64,000 nt of DNA. Source: Flavobacteriaceae bacterium. Its GTDB lineage: Bacteria > Bacteroidota > Bacteroidia > Flavobacteriales > Flavobacteriaceae. The DNA lies in the NCBI GenBank assembly GCA_017857815.1, contig JAFMCL010000011.1:1-64000 (forward strand). Reading direction: 5' to 3'. How positions within the stretch are numbered: the first letter of the stretch is position 1; every line of letters begins with the position of its first letter. Shown here in pieces: positions 53,195 to 62,951 of this stretch. Below the pieces are notes generated by a model, which made no database searches, was not told where the DNA came from, and saw nothing but the letters and a program-made list of their open reading frames with translations. Made by a program: the position numbers and the translations under genes.

Positions 53195-54166
53195 CTATTT
53201 AATAGCTACTCTTTTTTCTTTATTTCTTGTGCCAATCCTTCTGTCATCAGAGGAATTAGCTGAATTTCCTAAACGTATCTTAAGAATCAATTCATGAGTC
53301 CCATTGGTCAATTGACTAATATCAGATTCCCTAGGTGTTTCATATGCATAACCAAAAGAAAGACCCCCTTGAGTTTTTAGCATTAAATTGGCTCCAAAAC
53401 CACTTTCAAGATTATACTCGATTCCGAAGTTGATGAATTGATCATAATTAAAAGTCGTGTTAAGAGAAAGAAAAGTAGGGGCTCCTGCCACTTGCCTATA
53501 GAGTAAGAAAGGACTCAAAGTCCACCGGTCAGATACAAAGAGATTTACACCCCCACTTGCATAAAAATGAACCCTGTCAGTTGCACTAGTATACAAGCCT
53601 TGCTGGTCTAAATATCTTTTTGAATTTAGGATTCTAGGAGCAGATAAGGAAACAAAATATTTATTGTTTTTGAGATAAACTCCAACTCCGACATTGGGTA
53701 CAAATTGGCTGTAGTTTATAAGGTTTGGGTCAACTCCACTAGTCGTATTTTTACTTTCAAGTGCTTCAGCTTCGAGCCTAGTTCCATTGGCTCCTGCTTG
53801 TAGTCCTAAAAACAAATCGGTTTCTTCGGACATTGGAAGTTTATAGGAAAAGTTTACATAAGCATGCGTTTGTCTTTGTATAAATATTTCATCGTTGATA
53901 ATGTTCAACCCTATACCAACACGTTCATTGCTGGTTGGTGTCCCAAATGAAAAAGCTTGCACAACTGGAGCTCCATCAATTCCTGACCACTGACTTCGGT
54001 AACTCATGCTGAGCATAGGTGCCTCTTGTGTTCCTGTATAAGCAGGATTGAAAATAGTCATGTGCTGCCTGAACAATGAAAAGTGAGTGTATTGTTGTGA
54101 GAAGACAAAAACTGAAGTAAAGAACGCTAAAAGCGTTATAACGGGTCTGTTTATTGTAGTATTCAT
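53195..54166 (-). CDS. PorP/SprF-family T9SS outer-membrane protein
   Basis: 323-residue beta-barrel with signal peptide (to about residue 23). FSLFRQHMTIFNPAYTGTQEAPMLSMSYRSQWSGIDGAP, of which NPAYTG and the following MSYRSQW are the PorP/SprF signature, is at 28-65. SprF-type proteins help secrete and anchor partner T9SS cargo at the outer membrane. The gene directly upstream encodes such a cargo with a type B sorting domain, and its stop touches this ATG. Confidence 0.94.
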   Translation of the reverse strand: MNTTINRPVITLLAFFTSVFVFSQQYTHFSLFRQHMTIFNPAYTGTQEAPMLSMSYRSQWSGIDGAPVVQAFSFGTPTSNERVGIGLNIINDEIFIQRQTHAYVNFSYKLPMSEETDLFLGLQAGANGTRLEAEALESKNTTSGVDPNLINYSQFVPNVGVGVYLKNNKYFVSLSAPRILNSKRYLDQQGLYTSATDRVHFYASGGVNLFVSDRWTLSPFLLYRQVAGAPTFLSLNTTFNYDQFINFGIEYNLESGFGANLMLKTQGGLSFGYAYETPRESDISQLTNGTHELILKIRLGNSANSSDDRRIGTRNKEKRVAIK

Positions 54167-55412: not shown

Positions 55413-56177
55413 TTAAGATCTTATAGATTTTACAAAGGAATTTATTTTTTGAACCCCATTATTTTCTAGAAATTTAATAAATGCTGAACCTATTATCGCT
55501 CCACGACTCCATTGGGTTGCCAACTGATAAGTATCTGAATTGCTTATTCCAAACCCAACCACCTGAGGCGTTTTTAAATTCATGGAATTAATCCGCTCGA
55601 AATAATCTGATTGAGTATCTCCAAAAGTTGACTTTGCTCCTGTTACACTGGCACTACTAACCATATAGATAAAACCATCTGACACTTCATCAATATACCT
55701 AATTCTCTCATCGGATGTTTGTGGAGTGATTAAAAACATATTGTATAAGCCATGTTTTTGAAAAAGTGATTTGTACTGTTCATTATATAAATTCACAGGG
55801 AGATCGGGAATTATAAGTCCGTCTATTCCTACCTCAGCGCATCGTTCACAAAAACGCTCAATTCCAAATTGCATCATTGGATTGAAATATCCCATCAATA
55901 CTAAAGGGATGGTAATTTGACTACGGATATCTTTTAGTTGATTAAAGAGTATTTCAGTAGTCATCCCATTTTTAAGAGCTTGAGTAGAGCTTTCTTGAAT
56001 GGTAGGGCCATCTGCAAGGGGATCGCTGAAGGGCAACCCTATTTCAACCATGTCAACTCCAGAAGCTTCAAGAGCTTTTAAAATTGGGACAGTGTCTTCT
56101 AGAGAAGGGTGTCCGGCGGAAAAATAAATGGACAATAATTTTTTATTGCCTTGAAAGGTTTGATCGATTCGATTCAT
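55413..56177 (-). CDS. trpA: Tryptophan synthase alpha subunit
   Basis: Cleaves indole-3-glycerol phosphate to indole and glyceraldehyde-3-phosphate; 254 residues. Catalytic Glu and Asp lie in MVEIGLPFSDPLADGPTIQ, with GLIIPDLP and the phosphate site VGFGISN. Its ATG shares a base with the trpB stop. Last gene of trpEGDCFBA. Confidence 0.97.
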   Translation of the reverse strand: MNRIDQTFQGNKKLLSIYFSAGHPSLEDTVPILKALEASGVDMVEIGLPFSDPLADGPTIQESSTQALKNGMTTEILFNQLKDIRSQITIPLVLMGYFNPMMQFGIERFCERCAEVGIDGLIIPDLPVNLYNEQYKSLFQKHGLYNMFLITPQTSDERIRYIDEVSDGFIYMVSSASVTGAKSTFGDTQSDYFERINSMNLKTPQVVGFGISNSDTYQLATQWSRGAIIGSAFIKFLENNGVQKINSFVKSIRS

Positions 56178-57364
56178 TATAGTTTGAAGTATTCAATATA
56201 GGTATCTAAGTCTTTGTCTCCTCTTCCTGAGCAGTTGAAGACAATGACTTCATTTGGTTTAAACTTTCTTACATCTAGCGCTGCAAAAGCATGTGCTGTT
56301 TCAATTGCTGGGATGATTCCTTCCATTTGAGAGAGCATCAGACCCCAATCCATTGCTTCCTGATCTGGAATGGATATAAATTCGGCCCGCTTCGATCTGA
56401 AAAGATGGGCATGCATCGGACCTACACCCGGATAGTCTAAGCCTGCTGATATAGAGTAAGGCTCAGTGATTTGACCATCTGGGGTTTGCATTAATAAGGT
56501 TTTACTACCATGAATAATTCCTTCTTTCCCGAGTGCTGAGGTTGCTGCGCTTTCTCCAGAATCAATTCCTTTTCCAGCAGCTTCTACGGCAATGATGTTA
56601 ACCCGTTTATCATCTAAATAATGATAATATAAACCAGCTGCATTACTTCCGCCTCCGACACATGCAATTAAATGATCGGGGTAATCACGACCTTCTTTTT
56701 CTAACAATTGAGTTTTGGTCTCTGCACTGATAACTGACTGAAAACGTGCGACCATATCTGGATAAGGGTGAGGGCCAACAACCGATCCTATTATATAATG
56801 AGTGTTAACTGGGTTGTTGATCCAGTCTCTTATGGCTTCATTGGTGGCATCTTTAAGAGTTTTACTACCAGATTGGGCAGGCCTAACCTCGGCACCGAGC
56901 ATTTTCATGCGGGCAACATTAGGGGCTTGTCTTTTAATGTCAAGTGCTCCCATATAAACGATACATTCAATCCCCATCAATGCGCAAACGGTAGCGGTTG
57001 CAACTCCGTGTTGACCAGCGCCAGTTTCAGCAATGATTCTATTTTTTCCCAAACGTTTTGCCAATAGAATTTGTCCAATCGTGTTATTTACCTTGTGAGC
57101 ACCTGTATGGCACAAATCTTCGCGCTTAAGATAAATTTTAGTGTTGTATTTTTCCGAAAGCCTTGAAGCGTAATATAATGGAGTTGGACGCCCAACATAT
57201 TCCTTTAACAAGTAATCGAATTCTTTTTTGAATTCAGGCTCTGCAGTTATTTTTAAATAGTTTTGTCGCAATTCCTCTACATTGGGATGAAGCATTTCAG
57301 GGATATAAGCTCCTCCAAAATCTCCATAAAACCCTTTTTCATCTACTTGATACTTCATTCGCAT
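56177..57364 (-). CDS. trpB: Tryptophan synthase beta subunit
   Basis: PLP enzyme joining indole and serine; 395 residues. PLP lysine in LCHTGAHKVNNTIG, phosphate loop GGGSNAAGLYYHY, and the channel-domain GAGQHGVATATVC. ATG 57364 or the in-frame ATG 57358 are both possible. Immediately follows trpF. Confidence 0.97.
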   Translation of the reverse strand: MRMKYQVDEKGFYGDFGGAYIPEMLHPNVEELRQNYLKITAEPEFKKEFDYLLKEYVGRPTPLYYASRLSEKYNTKIYLKREDLCHTGAHKVNNTIGQILLAKRLGKNRIIAETGAGQHGVATATVCALMGIECIVYMGALDIKRQAPNVARMKMLGAEVRPAQSGSKTLKDATNEAIRDWINNPVNTHYIIGSVVGPHPYPDMVARFQSVISAETKTQLLEKEGRDYPDHLIACVGGGSNAAGLYYHYLDDKRVNIIAVEAAGKGIDSGESAATSALGKEGIIHGSKTLLMQTPDGQITEPYSISAGLDYPGVGPMHAHLFRSKRAEFISIPDQEAMDWGLMLSQMEGIIPAIETAHAFAALDVRKFKPNEVIVFNCSGRGDKDLDTYIEYFKL

Positions 57365-57979
57365 TTATTTAAAAAGTCCGATTTTAAAATCTTTTAATAA
57401 TTCAATTTTTTTCATTCCAGCTTCGCTTTCAAATTTACTATTTACATCAATAGCGTAAAGCGGTAAATTTAATTTAATGATTTCTTTTAAGTCTGCTAGA
57501 TGATCTATTCCTATTCCTCCGCTAAGGAAAAATGGCTTGCTAGAAGGGTATGATTTCAATAACTCCCAGTCAAACGCATATCCATTGCCCCCAGGAAGTT
57601 TCCCTTTGGTGTCAAATAAAAAATAATCACAAACATTTTCATAAGGGACTAAAGCCGAAAAATCAAAACCCTTTTTTATTGAAAAAACTTTAATGATTTC
57701 AACGTTTAAGTCTTTTAAACGATCACAAAAAGCAGGGTTTTCGTTTCCGTGTAACTGAATAGCTTGCAGTTGATGTGTTTCAATTAAACTTTTGATTTCA
57801 TCAAATGCTTCATTAACAAAGACTCCTGTTTTTTTGATACTGCTTGGAAGTGTTGGAGTTGTTGTTGTAACAAACCTTTTGGAGGGTCTCCAGAAAATGA
57901 AGCCCATATAGTCTGGTTTTAAATCAGACAACGCCAGAATGTTTTCGTGGCTTCGCATTCCACAAACCTTTAACTTCAT
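57365..57979 (-). CDS. trpF: Phosphoribosylanthranilate isomerase
   Basis: 204-residue TIM-barrel enzyme of tryptophan synthesis. KVCGMRSHENILAL with the catalytic cysteine, GVFVNEAFDEI, QLHGNE and FFLSGGIGIDH are the family segments. The ATG overlaps the trpC stop by ATGA. Confidence 0.96.
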   Translation of the reverse strand: MKLKVCGMRSHENILALSDLKPDYMGFIFWRPSKRFVTTTTPTLPSSIKKTGVFVNEAFDEIKSLIETHQLQAIQLHGNENPAFCDRLKDLNVEIIKVFSIKKGFDFSALVPYENVCDYFLFDTKGKLPGGNGYAFDWELLKSYPSSKPFFLSGGIGIDHLADLKEIIKLNLPLYAIDVNSKFESEAGMKKIELLKDFKIGLFK

Positions 57980-58761
57980 TGTTCAAGTTTTTTTATGAAA
58001 TCCATTGCACTTGCACCTGGATTTTCAGTTTTCATAAAATTCTCACCAATCAAAAACCCTTTATAACCGTATTCTTTCAAATCTTTAATGGATTCAACAT
58101 CACTAATCCCACTTTCAGATACTTTGATAAAATCGTCTGGGATCTTCTCTGCCAATACTTTGCTGGTTTCTAGAGAAACTTCAAAGGTTTTTAAGTTGCG
58201 ATTATTTACACCTAACAGATTCAGGCTGGGCATAATTGATTTTTCCAATTCTTCTGCATTGTGAACTTCAAGAAGAACTTCAAGTCCAAGACTTTGAGCA
58301 AATTCAGAAAGTTCTTTTATCTGATTTTTACTTAAAACAGCTGCAATCAAAAGGATGACATCAGCGCCATGCGCCTTTGCCTCTAGAATCTGATAACGAT
58401 CAATAATAAATTCTTTTCTAAGCAAAGGAAATTGAGTGACTGCCCTTGCTGCGATCAGATCGCCCAAACAACCTCCAAAATATTTAGTGTCAGTTAATAC
58501 AGACATTCCCGATACCCCAGCGGATTCATAGCCTTTGGCAACATCAGTAATAGAAAGGCTACTGTTGATGCTGTTTCGCGAAGGGGATCTTCTTTTGTGC
58601 TCGGCGATGATGCCCGAAGTACTGTTTTTTAAACATTCAGAAATTGAAACAGTTGCTTTTTCAAACAAAGGGGATTGTTCCCAAAAGGAAACTGGGAATA
58701 GGGCTTTTCTTTGTGCGACTTCTATATTCTTGTCAGCGATAATTTTATCTAAAATTGTCAT
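57976..58761 (-). CDS. trpC: Indole-3-glycerol phosphate synthase
   Basis: 261-residue TIM barrel making indole-3-glycerol phosphate. IIAEHKRRSPSRNSIN with the catalytic lysines, SVLTDTKYFGG, LLRKEFIIDRYQI and VSESGISDVESI are all present. It is separate from trpF here, not fused. Overlaps trpD by 4 bp. Confidence 0.96.
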   Translation of the reverse strand: MTILDKIIADKNIEVAQRKALFPVSFWEQSPLFEKATVSISECLKNSTSGIIAEHKRRSPSRNSINSSLSITDVAKGYESAGVSGMSVLTDTKYFGGCLGDLIAARAVTQFPLLRKEFIIDRYQILEAKAHGADVILLIAAVLSKNQIKELSEFAQSLGLEVLLEVHNAEELEKSIMPSLNLLGVNNRNLKTFEVSLETSKVLAEKIPDDFIKVSESGISDVESIKDLKEYGYKGFLIGENFMKTENPGASAMDFIKKLEQ

Positions 58762-59753
58762 TCAGCACTCAGTTTTTGAAGGGTGATTAATGCTTGATTG
58801 GCTTTTCCCGAGAGTAAAGATTCTTTAGCTTTTTCAAAACCTTCTTTTGGGGAACATTCCAAAACTGTAGCAATTGCCATGGCTGCATTAGCACAGACAA
58901 CATTTTGTTGTGCTTGAGTTGCTTTTCCTCGAATAACTTCTGTAAAAATTTTTGCAGAAGAGGAGATGTTATCTCCGCCTGCAATCTCTGAGGCATCCAG
59001 TGAGTTAAGCCCAAAGTCTTCCGGGTGAATTAAACTTTCTCCTGAATTTCGTAGTGCTTTGGTGGGTCCAGTTAATGAAATTTCATCATAACCATCCAAC
59101 GCATACAATATGGTAAAGTTTTGATCAGTTTTCTGAAAAAGATATCCATAAAGTCTGGCCAATTCAAGATTGAAAACACCTGTTAGTTGATGCTTGGGAA
59201 ATGAGGGATTTACTAATGGCCCTAACATGTTGAAAAATGTTTTGACGCCGAGTTCTCTTCTTATGGGTGCAACGTTTTTCATGGCAGGGTGAAACAGTGG
59301 AGCGTGAAGATTACAAATACCCGCTTGGTCAATACATCTTTTTAAAAAGTCAGCATCATTTGAAAATTTAATTCCCATTAGTTCTAAAACATTACTTGAT
59401 CCACAACCAGATGATACCCCATAATTTCCGTGTTTAGCAACTTTGATTCCAGCTCCTGCTGTTACAAACGATGCTAATGTGGAAATATTGAAAGTGTCTT
59501 TTCCGTCTCCTCCTGTTCCGCAAAGATCAATGGGTGAAAATTCACTTAGATCGATGGCAAGGCAAAGCTTTAGCAAAGCGTTTCTAAAACCTTCTAACTC
59601 CTTAAGTGTGATGCTTCTCATCATAAAAACCGTCAAAAATGAAGCAATCTCACTAGGGTTGTATTTGCCTTCGGCAATCCCAACGAGAACATTTTCGGCC
59701 TCTTCTTTTTCAAGTGTTTCGTGCTGTGTTAATCGGTTGAGTATGGCTTTCAT
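58758..59753 (-). CDS. trpD: Anthranilate phosphoribosyltransferase
   Basis: 331 residues. LCGTGGDGKDTFNISTLASF is the PRPP/anthranilate site, KHGNYGVSSGCGSSNVLE and the later GDDNIS-type segment (GGDNISSSAKIF) complete the active site. It follows trpG by 4 bp. Confidence 0.96.
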   Translation of the reverse strand: MKAILNRLTQHETLEKEEAENVLVGIAEGKYNPSEIASFLTVFMMRSITLKELEGFRNALLKLCLAIDLSEFSPIDLCGTGGDGKDTFNISTLASFVTAGAGIKVAKHGNYGVSSGCGSSNVLELMGIKFSNDADFLKRCIDQAGICNLHAPLFHPAMKNVAPIRRELGVKTFFNMLGPLVNPSFPKHQLTGVFNLELARLYGYLFQKTDQNFTILYALDGYDEISLTGPTKALRNSGESLIHPEDFGLNSLDASEIAGGDNISSSAKIFTEVIRGKATQAQQNVVCANAAMAIATVLECSPKEGFEKAKESLLSGKANQALITLQKLSAE

Positions 59754-59757
59754 GTTC

Positions 59758-60321
59758 TTAGCTATTGATCCAATTTTCTAATATTTTCTTACCGTTGGGA
59801 GTCAATACGGATTCTGGGTGGTATTGAACCGAACGAACATGATATTCTTTGTGTCTTAAAGACATTAGCTGATGTTTTTCATCATAAGATGTAGCAATTA
59901 AAACTTCTGGTAAAGGTGTTTTTACCACCCAAGAGTGGTAGCGCCCAATGTCAAAAGTTTTTGGAAGTCCTTCAAATAAAAGATCCTTTTCGCATATGGT
60001 AACTGGAGTTGCTACGCCGTGAAAAACAGAGTCTAAATTAGTTAATGTAGCACCAAAAACTTCGCCAATGGCTTGCTGTCCAAGACATACACCTAATATT
60101 TTTTTTGAAGGTGCGTACATTTTTATAGCATCTTTCAAAAGACCTGCTTCATCAGGAATACCCGGTCCTGGGGAAAGCAAAATGTATTCATATTGCTCTA
60201 ACTCTTTCAATTCAAAACAATCATTTCTTTTAACAGTCACATGACAACCAAGTTCTTCTAAATAGTGAACGAGGTTATAGGTGAAGGAATCGTAATTATC
60301 AATGACGAATACTTTTTTCAT
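59758..60321 (-). CDS. trpG: Anthranilate synthase glutamine amidotransferase subunit
   Basis: 187-residue class I amidotransferase supplying ammonia to TrpE. Nucleophile C79 in ILGVCLGQQAIGEVFG, and the His-Glu pair in VQYHPESVLT. It starts IDNYDSFTYNLVHYLEELG. It could also be shared with p-aminobenzoate synthesis, but position makes TrpG clear. Confidence 0.96.
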   Translation of the reverse strand: MKKVFVIDNYDSFTYNLVHYLEELGCHVTVKRNDCFELKELEQYEYILLSPGPGIPDEAGLLKDAIKMYAPSKKILGVCLGQQAIGEVFGATLTNLDSVFHGVATPVTICEKDLLFEGLPKTFDIGRYHSWVVKTPLPEVLIATSYDEKHQLMSLRHKEYHVRSVQYHPESVLTPNGKKILENWINS

Positions 60322-60331
60322 CTTTATTAAT

Positions 60332-61744
60332 TTATAATTTTTCAGCTAAACTTAATGCTTGGTCTAAAGCACCGAGTTTGTTGTATACTTCTTGTAATTC
60401 GTTTTCCGGAACAGATTTGGCGACGATACCAGCTCCTGCTTGATAATGCAATTTTTGATTTTTACTTAAAAAGGAACGTATGATAATGCAATGATTAAAG
60501 TTCCCTTTAAAATCCATGTATCCCAAGGCCCCTCCATAAAAATTTCTTGAAGTTTTTTCATAACGATCAATGAGTTGAAGTGCTTTGTGTTTTGGAGCAC
60601 CACTTAAGGTTCCAGCGGGGAAAGTGTCTGCAACCACCTGAAAAGTTTTTGCTTTCGACTTTAATCTCCCAGTCACTTTTGATACCAAATGGATCACATG
60701 AGAAAAGAATTGAATTTCTCTATTTTTTTCAACTTTAACATCTGTTCCGTTTCTGCTGAGGTCATTCCTAGCCAAATCAACTAACATTACGTGCTCACTA
60801 TTTTCTTTTGGGTCTTCGGCCAATCTTTTTGCAGATTTAGTGTCCTCTTCGTCATTTCCTGATCTTCGGAAAGTTCCTGCAATTGGGTGAATTTCAGCGA
60901 CACCATCTTCAACAATAAGTTGAGCTTCGGGCGAGCTCCCAAAGATTTTAAAGTCTCCATAATCAAAAAAGAAAAGATAGGGGGATGGGTTTACAGAACG
61001 CAAAGTTCTGTAAACATTAAATTCATCTCCACTAAATTCTTGTGAAAACCTTCTAGACAATACCAGCTGGAATACATCGCCACGGAAGCAATGTTCTTTT
61101 CCTTTTTTCACATAATCTATAAATTCATCATCCGTAAGATTAGACTTTTTTTCTCCCTTTTTCTCAAAACCATAAGTAGCAATATTATCACCTCTTAAAA
61201 GCTGTTCTATTTTTTTTAAATTATGTCCTTTATCAAAAGAGCTTGAGAACAAGTGCGCTTCGTGATTGAAAATACTAATTGCAATTATATTCTGATATAC
61301 TGCATAGTAAATTTCAGGAATATCTAGACTTTCTTTTTCTTCATTCAAATCAATTGATTCGAAATGCTTTACTGCATCATGGGCGATGTAGCCAAACAGG
61401 CCATTTGTTATGAATTTAAAAGGATAACTGTCACTTTCAAATTGTCTAGAAAAACCCTCTATCAATTCTGGCACACTATCCGTTAAGCTCAGCTTAAGGA
61501 TTTCGTTTGACCCATCAGGAAAGCGATAGTCAATCATACCGTTCTGAATGCTTATTGAGGCGATTGGATTGCAGCAGATATAGGAGAAGTTGTTGGTATG
61601 CACATCATAATCACTACTCTCCAGCAAAAGGCTGTGCGGAAATTGATCCCTAATTTTAAGATAAACACTCACAGGCGTCAAGGTATCAGCAAGTATTTTT
61701 TTATGCTCCGAATGTAATTTATATATTTTTTTCTTTAGTTTCAT
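60332..61744 (-). CDS. trpE: Anthranilate synthase component I
   Basis: Converts chorismate to anthranilate; 470 residues. The tryptophan feedback site LLLESSD (about 39-45) is intact, and the chorismate-binding core shows SPYLFFFDYGDFKIFGSSPE, HPIAGTFRRSGN, VMLVDLARNDLSRNG and FPAGTLSGAPKHKALQLID. First structural gene of the operon, 7 bp after the attenuator hairpin region. Confidence 0.97.
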   Translation of the reverse strand: MKLKKKIYKLHSEHKKILADTLTPVSVYLKIRDQFPHSLLLESSDYDVHTNNFSYICCNPIASISIQNGMIDYRFPDGSNEILKLSLTDSVPELIEGFSRQFESDSYPFKFITNGLFGYIAHDAVKHFESIDLNEEKESLDIPEIYYAVYQNIIAISIFNHEAHLFSSSFDKGHNLKKIEQLLRGDNIATYGFEKKGEKKSNLTDDEFIDYVKKGKEHCFRGDVFQLVLSRRFSQEFSGDEFNVYRTLRSVNPSPYLFFFDYGDFKIFGSSPEAQLIVEDGVAEIHPIAGTFRRSGNDEEDTKSAKRLAEDPKENSEHVMLVDLARNDLSRNGTDVKVEKNREIQFFSHVIHLVSKVTGRLKSKAKTFQVVADTFPAGTLSGAPKHKALQLIDRYEKTSRNFYGGALGYMDFKGNFNHCIIIRSFLSKNQKLHYQAGAGIVAKSVPENELQEVYNKLGALDQALSLAEKL

Positions 61745-61750
61745 ATTCTA

Positions 61751-61786
61751 AAATTAAAAAAGGCTTGTCGTGATGACAAGCCTTTT
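61751..61786 (-). terminator. trp attenuator terminator
   Basis: Perfect 12-bp stem: AAAAGGCTTGTC and GACAAGCCTTTT (61775-61786 with 61758-61769), loop of 5 bases, then a T-rich run on the minus strand (TTTAATTTT) that ends 7 bp before the trpE ATG. It lies upstream of the structural genes, so it controls entry into the operon rather than ending it. A segment upstream (61807-61812) can pair with its loop (61768-61773), which would block the terminator. Confidence 0.92.
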
Positions 61787-61806
61787 ATATTTAGATAATA
61801 GCAGTT

Positions 61807-61831
61807 TCACGAATCGATTAAAATAATTCGT
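61807..61831 (-). promoter_or_regulatory. Competing pause/antiterminator hairpin of the trp leader
   Basis: ACGAAT (minus-strand reading of 61826-61831) pairs with ATTCGT (61809-61814) around an 11-base loop, directly after the two Trp codons. The overlapping TCGTGA (61807-61812) is complementary to TCACGA in the terminator loop (61768-61773). A ribosome stalled at the Trp codons would cover 61826-61831 and free the downstream strand for antitermination. Stabilities were not computed. Confidence 0.65.
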
Positions 61832-61865
61832 TCCACCAACTTTTAATTTCCTTTTTGATATTCAT
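61818..61865 (-). CDS. trpL: trp operon leader peptide
   Basis: 15-codon reading frame, MNIKKEIKSWWNELF, with two adjacent Trp codons (61833-61838) and stop TAA at 61818-61820. It lies 73 bp upstream of trpE and precedes a competing hairpin and a terminator, the classical design by which charged tRNA-Trp controls the operon. Too short for standard gene finders. A TATATTTG box lies 4 bp before its ATG, so it may be translated from a leaderless transcript. Confidence 0.85.
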   Translation of the reverse strand: MNIKKEIKSWWNELF

Positions 61866-61869
61866 TACA

Positions 61870-61877
61870 CAAATATA
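61870..61877 (-). promoter_or_regulatory. -7 box (TATATTTG) of the trp operon
   Basis: Perfect TAnnTTTG 4 bp upstream of the trpL ATG. No TTG -33 element is visible in the AT-rich 30 bp upstream. Confidence 0.5.
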
Positions 61878-61923
61878 GAATAAAAAATATTTGTATTTAA
61901 AATCTTAATGAATTTTATATTAC

Positions 61924-62505
61924 TTATTCAGCATTCATAACCAAACTCACTTCTAATTTGATGTCATCTAGGATAAGTTTGTCTCCGAGATTTTCGAAAA
62001 AATTCCCAGATCTAAATTTCACATTGTACTTGGAGCGATCAAAAGTCAAATCAGATTTGGCAGCTCCTCCCGCTAATGTCATTGTAAATGCAATAGGATG
62101 TTCGATGTCTTTGATGGTAAGTGTTCCGTTTAAGCTTTGGACCCCATCAGTAACTCCCGTGTTTTCAGTAATAACTAGTTTAGATTCAGTAAAATTATTT
62201 GTAGAGAAAAAATCATCTGAACTTAGATGACCTTCAAGTTTTTCTTTCATTCCCCCACTAAGGTCTTCGACGCTCATGCTGGTCATGTCTACGATAAATT
62301 CACCCGATACCACATTGTTGTCTTTTATTGTGAGGTTGCCAGCTTTAAATTTTAGATCCCCAAAATGTTCTTTTCCAGTGATTTGCTCACCATACCAGCG
62401 AATATTGCTTGATTCTAAATTAATAGACGATTCTTGCGCATTTCCAACCGTAAAGGCGAATAATAATAAAGAATAAAATAAGATAGTTTTTGATAGTTTT
62501 GTCAT
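61924..62505 (-). CDS. YceI family periplasmic protein
   Basis: 193 residues with a signal peptide (to about 23, NAQESS) and the YceI lipocalin-like barrel: NIRWYGEQITGKEHFG, VSGEFIVDMTSM, LEGHLSSDDFF and LTIKDIEHPIAFTMTL. Members bind polyisoprenoids or other hydrophobic molecules. It is the second gene after a MarR regulator, a frequent pairing. 17 bp separate them. Confidence 0.92.
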   Translation of the reverse strand: MTKLSKTILFYSLLLFAFTVGNAQESSINLESSNIRWYGEQITGKEHFGDLKFKAGNLTIKDNNVVSGEFIVDMTSMSVEDLSGGMKEKLEGHLSSDDFFSTNNFTESKLVITENTGVTDGVQSLNGTLTIKDIEHPIAFTMTLAGGAAKSDLTFDRSKYNVKFRSGNFFENLGDKLILDDIKLEVSLVMNAE

Positions 62506-62522
62506 GTTTAATAGATTGATTG

Positions 62523-62951
62523 TTAATTTAAATTAATTTTATTTAATAATTTTCTTAGAGATTTTTGTTCTTCTAAATCAAGAGGTTTTAATATTTCGAT
62601 TTCGGCTTTTTCAATCACCAAATCCAATTCAGATAACATTGATTTCCCTTTTGGAGTAATAATGAGTTCGATTTTCCTACGATTTTCTTCAGATGTTTTT
62701 CGTTCAACCAAAAATTTTTCTATTAATTTATCGATTAATCTTGTAGTATTACTGTTTTTATGAACCATTCTTTTTTGGATCGTACTCAAATTAGCAGGTT
62801 TTTCTTTGCGACCTCTAAGAATTCTGAGTACATTGAACTGTTGGAGTGAAATTTCATAAGGTTTCAAAACCTTGGATAAAAAATCTTCTGCTCTGCTACT
62901 GGCTTTGAGCAAACCCACTACAGTGTTTTTTGTAAATTCTATCTGCCTCAT
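62523..62951 (-). CDS. MarR family transcriptional regulator
   Basis: 142 residues with a winged helix-turn-helix: LQQFNVLRILRGRKEKP, IQKRMVHKNSNTTRLIDKLIE (recognition region) and a KLIITPKGKSMLSEL-type wing. It probably controls the YceI gene behind it and itself; an ACAATTGT palindrome lies between its promoter and its start. Ligand unknown. Confidence 0.93.
   Translation of the reverse strand: MRQIEFTKNTVVGLLKASSRAEDFLSKVLKPYEISLQQFNVLRILRGRKEKPANLSTIQKRMVHKNSNTTRLIDKLIEKFLVERKTSEENRRKIELIITPKGKSMLSELDLVIEKAEIEILKPLDLEEQKSLRKLLNKINLN

Follow-up and report, generated by a model that had tools for sequence, protein, structure and literature searches.

A diverged Bacteroid-trp leader in an uncultured marine flavobacterium as a probable ribosome-mediated attenuator with a predicted terminator-tip antiterminator

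The leader of the trp operon in the window (the whole 64,000-nucleotide stretch analysed here) is best read as a ribosome-mediated transcription attenuator, a diverged homologue of the Bacteroid-trp element in which an antiterminator strand would kinetically block the tip of the terminator; we put the probability of this reading at roughly 0.88. The original prediction had also taken the locus for ribosome-mediated trp attenuation, and the conserved leader anatomy and mutually exclusive pairings described below support that interpretation. As in other amino-acid attenuators, an open reading frame (ORF) rich in the cognate codon precedes a terminator placed before the first gene, with exclusive pairings that are conserved in relatives.

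The trp leader and its operon

The window comes from an uncultured marine Flavobacteriaceae bacterium that, judged by TrpE, has Candidatus Arcticimaribacter as its closest named relatives. Its complete trp operon, trpE-trpG-trpD-trpC-trpF-trpB-trpA, lies on the minus strand at 55413–61744, with the trpE ATG at 61744, and would be the cognate operon under control of the attenuator. The region just upstream on the same strand (61924–62951) encodes a YceI-like protein and a MarR-type regulator; trpE follows the 3′ end of a YceI gene in several relatives of the genus as well. A PorP/SprF-like type IX secretion protein is encoded downstream of the operon, again on the same strand (53195–54166). In one near-identical relative (L018, G018:C4:12090-13500) trpE is broken into two frames near residue 100, which may be an assembly error.

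Upstream of trpE the minus strand holds the elements in the order originally proposed, at coordinates that were right except for the distance of the T run. The first is a −7 box, TATATTTG (61870–61877), of the TAnnTTTG type recognized by the Bacteroidota primary sigma factor, assigned from its sequence and the published position of such boxes. A leader ORF follows, MNIKKEIKSWWNELF including the stop codon (61818–61865; ATG at 61865, stop codon at 61820–61818), which is conserved in the genus and family and contains the tandem Trp codons UGGUGG (61833–61838). Around its stop codon lies hairpin 1, the putative anti-antiterminator ACGAAUU/GAUUCGU (61809–61831), whose core ACGAAU/AUUCGU (61831–61826 with 61814–61809) is exact and can be extended to 7 bp. 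The intrinsic terminator (61758–61786) has a perfect 12-bp stem, with arms 61786–61775 and 61769–61758, and a 5-nt loop, AUCAC; it is the only strong terminator-like site within the trp operon. Its T run (61761–61756) ends 11 nt before the trpE ATG, not 7 bp before trpE as first reported.

The proposed antiterminator strand, UCGUGA (61812–61807), is the exact 6-bp complement of UCACGA (61773–61768). This complementarity had been recognized before, with a target described as terminator loop; the target in fact comprises four loop bases and the two that open the 3′ arm. Bases 61812–61809 are common to hairpin 1 and the antiterminator pairing, making the two mutually exclusive as predicted, and both pairings are conserved in relatives. 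The leader RNA as a whole folds better than 200 of 200 shuffled sequences (z = −4.5). The tip complement of the window leader taken alone reaches only p ~ 0.05 against shuffles, and we rejected such a single-leader complement as proof of an antiterminator; across relatives, by contrast, sequence conservation makes the candidate pairing convincing.

Conservation and the antiterminator register

We gathered about 186 trpE leaders, in 165 of which a script located a run of Trp codons with a terminator after it (123 from the family, 42 from other families). The W-rich ORF, the terminator and the spacing are kept throughout the class, and the same leader layout is found both in the genus (Candidatus Arcticimaribacter) and widely in Flavobacteriaceae. 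The original prediction had staked itself on relatives retaining the Trp codons and the terminator, and it withstood this test. Among 17 aligned leaders of the genus, the terminator is present in 17, with its stem pairs kept in 100%, and the tandem Trp codons in 15; the leaders of G017 and G010 keep a single Trp codon.

Within the genus, four of the nine pairs of hairpin 1 have changed on both sides, and 0 of 500 shuffles matched either its count of cells with such two-sided changes or its covariation score. RNAalifold recovered from the genus alignment only four hairpin 1 pairs, two further pairs and the terminator, and the pair counts given for the genus were therefore made on structures named by hand. 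The antiterminator pairing is nearly invariant there, with 99% of cells paired and no covariation within the genus. A seventh pair is available in 16 of the 17 genus leaders, the window leader having six.

Variation across the family is more informative about the register. Throughout the family, the strand (G)UCGUGA has the terminator loop and the start of the 3′ arm as its pairing partner. It lies 23–26 nt downstream of the first of the tandem Trp codons (10th–90th percentile), and the tip complement is significant against shuffles at 0.05 in 102 of the 123 family leaders. Compensated variants include UCGCGA/UCGCGA (G025), UCGCAA/UUGCGA (G086) and GCGAG/CUCGC (G024), and the seventh pair switches from A-U to U-A. 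When the 123 leaders were aligned blind to pairing, 836 of 984 cells proved to be paired, compared with 808 ± 3.8 (maximum 821) in column shuffles, although comparative counts of this kind take no account of phylogeny. Together, these comparisons lend support across Flavobacteriaceae to the antiterminator register put forward originally, as far as sequence can indicate it.

In other families of Bacteroidia, strands such as GUGAACAGC, GAGAAGC or UGAACG pair with GCUGUUC, GCUUCUC or CGUUCA, a target made up of the loop and the last part of the 5′ arm (137 bases in the 5′ arm, 107 in the loop and 37 in the 3′ arm), which is the textbook geometry of an antiterminator. The tip complement was not significant in 24 of these 42 leaders. 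In a swap control, strands fitted their own terminators better than those of others (15.4 versus 11.5, z = 10, for the variants and other families combined; z = 8 for the other families separately).

Such geometry raises the alternative that the window holds an attenuator with a different antiterminator, either UCGUGA in a weak 5′-arm register (GUGAU with GUCAU) or a different stretch of the upstream RNA that sequesters GGCUUGUC, the loop complement then being a by-product. A register slid by three does pair 85% of cells in the genus alignment, and the 5′ arm and loop are used both in other families and in the his leader of the same genome. Family-wide, however, the slid registers that we tested pair far fewer cells (186–470), the 5′ arm holds only 13 of the 856 bases in the best duplexes (562 are in the loop and 281 in the 3′ arm), and the compensations track the loop register. 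We consider this alternative unlikely.

Still less probable is that pairing of UCGUGA with the loop forms a pseudoknot that stabilizes the terminator, or a pause, instead of opposing termination. It would account for a pairing directed at the loop and for a terminator that is kept in the full RNA, but the target reaches into the beginning of the 3′ arm, and since no nucleotide separates target from 3′ arm, canonical pseudoknot geometry should not accommodate both stems. Moreover, the homologous strands of other families target the 5′ arm and are thus plainly anti-terminating.

We also weighed whether the terminator, which sits between the YceI-like gene (ending at 61924) and trpE, is simply the ordinary terminator of that upstream gene, with an unrelated promoter nearby and an incidental mini-ORF. 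The −7 box and the ORF lie in the same interval, and the Trp codons, frame, spacing and pairing are all kept in many genera, which makes this explanation highly improbable. Regulation of trp genes by T-boxes or other tRNA- or protein-binding leaders occurs in other phyla, but the best Rfam match here is Bacteroid-trp and the Rfam search found no T-box or other RNA family in the window leader, with no T-box match even at E 10, so that tryptophan sensing by such a leader can be dismissed as a negligible prospect.

Folding intermediates and predicted transcript start

Stepwise folding of the emerging RNA revealed the two exclusive states among the intermediates. With the RNA extended to 61765 and a ribosome stalled on the Trp codons, the computed probability was 0.96 for the antiterminator and 0.001 for the terminator; once the ribosome stood at the stop codon, it covered UCGUGA and the antiterminator fell to 0. 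The footprint edges used for the stalled positions are approximate, lying one base off codon boundaries. Without a ribosome, hairpin 1 had a probability of 0.74, rising to 0.98 at full length, and in intermediates ending at 61768–61767 the antiterminator was briefly preferred (0.85–0.87). In the full-length RNA, computed in every state, the terminator was favoured at 0.999. Because the complete RNA always favours the terminator, the antiterminator would have to win kinetically, by capturing the tip while the remainder of the 3′ arm is still to be transcribed.

We therefore propose a switch of the following kind. When charged tRNA-Trp is ample, the ribosome would reach the stop codon and cover UCGUGA, or would leave and allow hairpin 1 to sequester it; in either case the terminator would form and trpE would remain untranscribed. 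When tryptophan is scarce, the ribosome would stall on UGGUGG and cover the 5′ arm of hairpin 1, leaving UCGUGA free to capture the tip, UCACGA, as it leaves the polymerase and before the remaining 3′ arm exists. A terminator whose tip has been captured could not nucleate, and transcription would continue into the operon.

The position of the −7 box suggests where this transcript begins. In 17 of 17 genus trp leaders that have both a box and an ATG, the distance from the end of the one to the other is exactly 4 nt, and the same spacing is found in 15 of 15 his leaders of the genus (L273–L298), several of which have a GTG start. In Flavobacterium psychrophilum the −7 box lies at −12 to −5 (PMC9723704) and in Flavobacterium johnsoniae 4–5 nt from the start (PMC6847099). 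Combined with these positions, the 4-nt spacing would put +1 at the A that opens the leader AUG or one nucleotide away from it, and our predicted start in the window is that A (61865, minus strand). The leader-peptide mRNAs of both the trp and his attenuators of the genus are thus predicted to be leaderless.

Known relatives and wider comparison

The Bacteroid-trp motif was published in 2010 by Weinberg et al. (PMC2864571). In F. psychrophilum it has been recorded in front of the trp operon (PMC6414381), and transcriptome data from that species have led to the inference that amino-acid operons are attenuated through leader peptides (PMC9723704). Whether such an attenuator had been described in flavobacteria, a question raised by the original prediction, is thereby answered in the affirmative, and with the Rfam family RF01692 and these papers in existence we rejected the idea of a novel kind of element. 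Among 151 genomes of the family, 132 match RF01692 at E ≤ 1 and 96 pass the gathering cut-off. The window match (61775–61885, minus strand) stays below that cut-off, at 36.9 bits (E = 0.009) against 49, with other genera of the family passing. In the Rfam match alignment about 7 of the 24 pairs of the long consensus hairpin, which includes the Trp codons, are non-standard here, and there are deletions besides; the genus conserves the shorter hairpin in its place. A Trp-codon ORF and GGCUUGUC are present upstream of trpE, as in the Rfam family. The window copy is a diverged RF01692 homologue that would go unannotated if the Rfam cut-off were applied.

Like RF01692, the window element lies upstream of Bacteroidota trp genes and combines a short Trp-codon ORF with the conserved terminator arm. 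It differs in that the Rfam model stops at this arm, before any loop or antiterminator pairing, and in that a 5′ UTR is apparently absent in the window's genus. Our additions to a trp attenuator already known in flavobacteria are accordingly two sequence-based predictions, one on the register of the antiterminator and one on a leaderless start. Both the probable switching pairing and a message beginning at the start codon of the peptide appear to be previously undescribed, and searches of the literature in open papers found no loop-directed antiterminator.

With confidence somewhat above even, we propose jointly that the trp antiterminator of Flavobacteriaceae captures the terminator loop and 3′ arm, a register shifted from the classical geometry of other Bacteroidia and of the his attenuator in the same genome, and that the trp and his attenuator transcripts of the genus are leaderless. 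If so, the sensing ribosome would load directly on a 5′-terminal start codon in this genus. Bacteroid-trp, catalogued but with a mechanism undescribed in the sources covered, would gain a testable switch specifying which strand opposes the terminator and where. We suggest that an antiterminator could migrate past the loop, away from the 5′ arm and onto the 3′ arm, with the remainder of the attenuator unchanged. Leaderless sensing peptides would also be predicted in a phylum without Shine–Dalgarno sequences in which leaderless mRNA is rare (about 5.5% in F. psychrophilum; PMC9723704).

The same genome carries a his attenuator (L281; G000:C44, upstream of HisG at 77842) with the leader MQNIKLHTHQFSIAQVR and a terminator, in which the strand GCUCAAGUG pairs with the 5′ arm and loop, CGUUUGAGC; it has no Rfam match at the gathering cut-off. 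A scan of ilvD leaders in the genus found no attenuator. The his attenuators of the genus resemble the trp leader in their 4-nt box spacing, leader peptide (here with His codons), terminator and tip-complementary strand, but their strand falls on the 5′ arm and loop (112 and 42 bases, with 6 in the 3′ arm). The E. coli type of trp attenuator likewise has a leader peptide with tandem Trp codons, exclusive hairpins and a terminator before trpE; the window antiterminator is predicted to take the loop and 3′ arm, not the 5′ arm, and we claim no sequence homology between the two. Finally, the trpL attenuator transcript of Sinorhizobium meliloti is reported to be leaderless, starting at the ATG of the leader peptide (PMC7298713), as predicted for the window, although S. 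meliloti is an unrelated alphaproteobacterium and its start rests on data where ours is a prediction.
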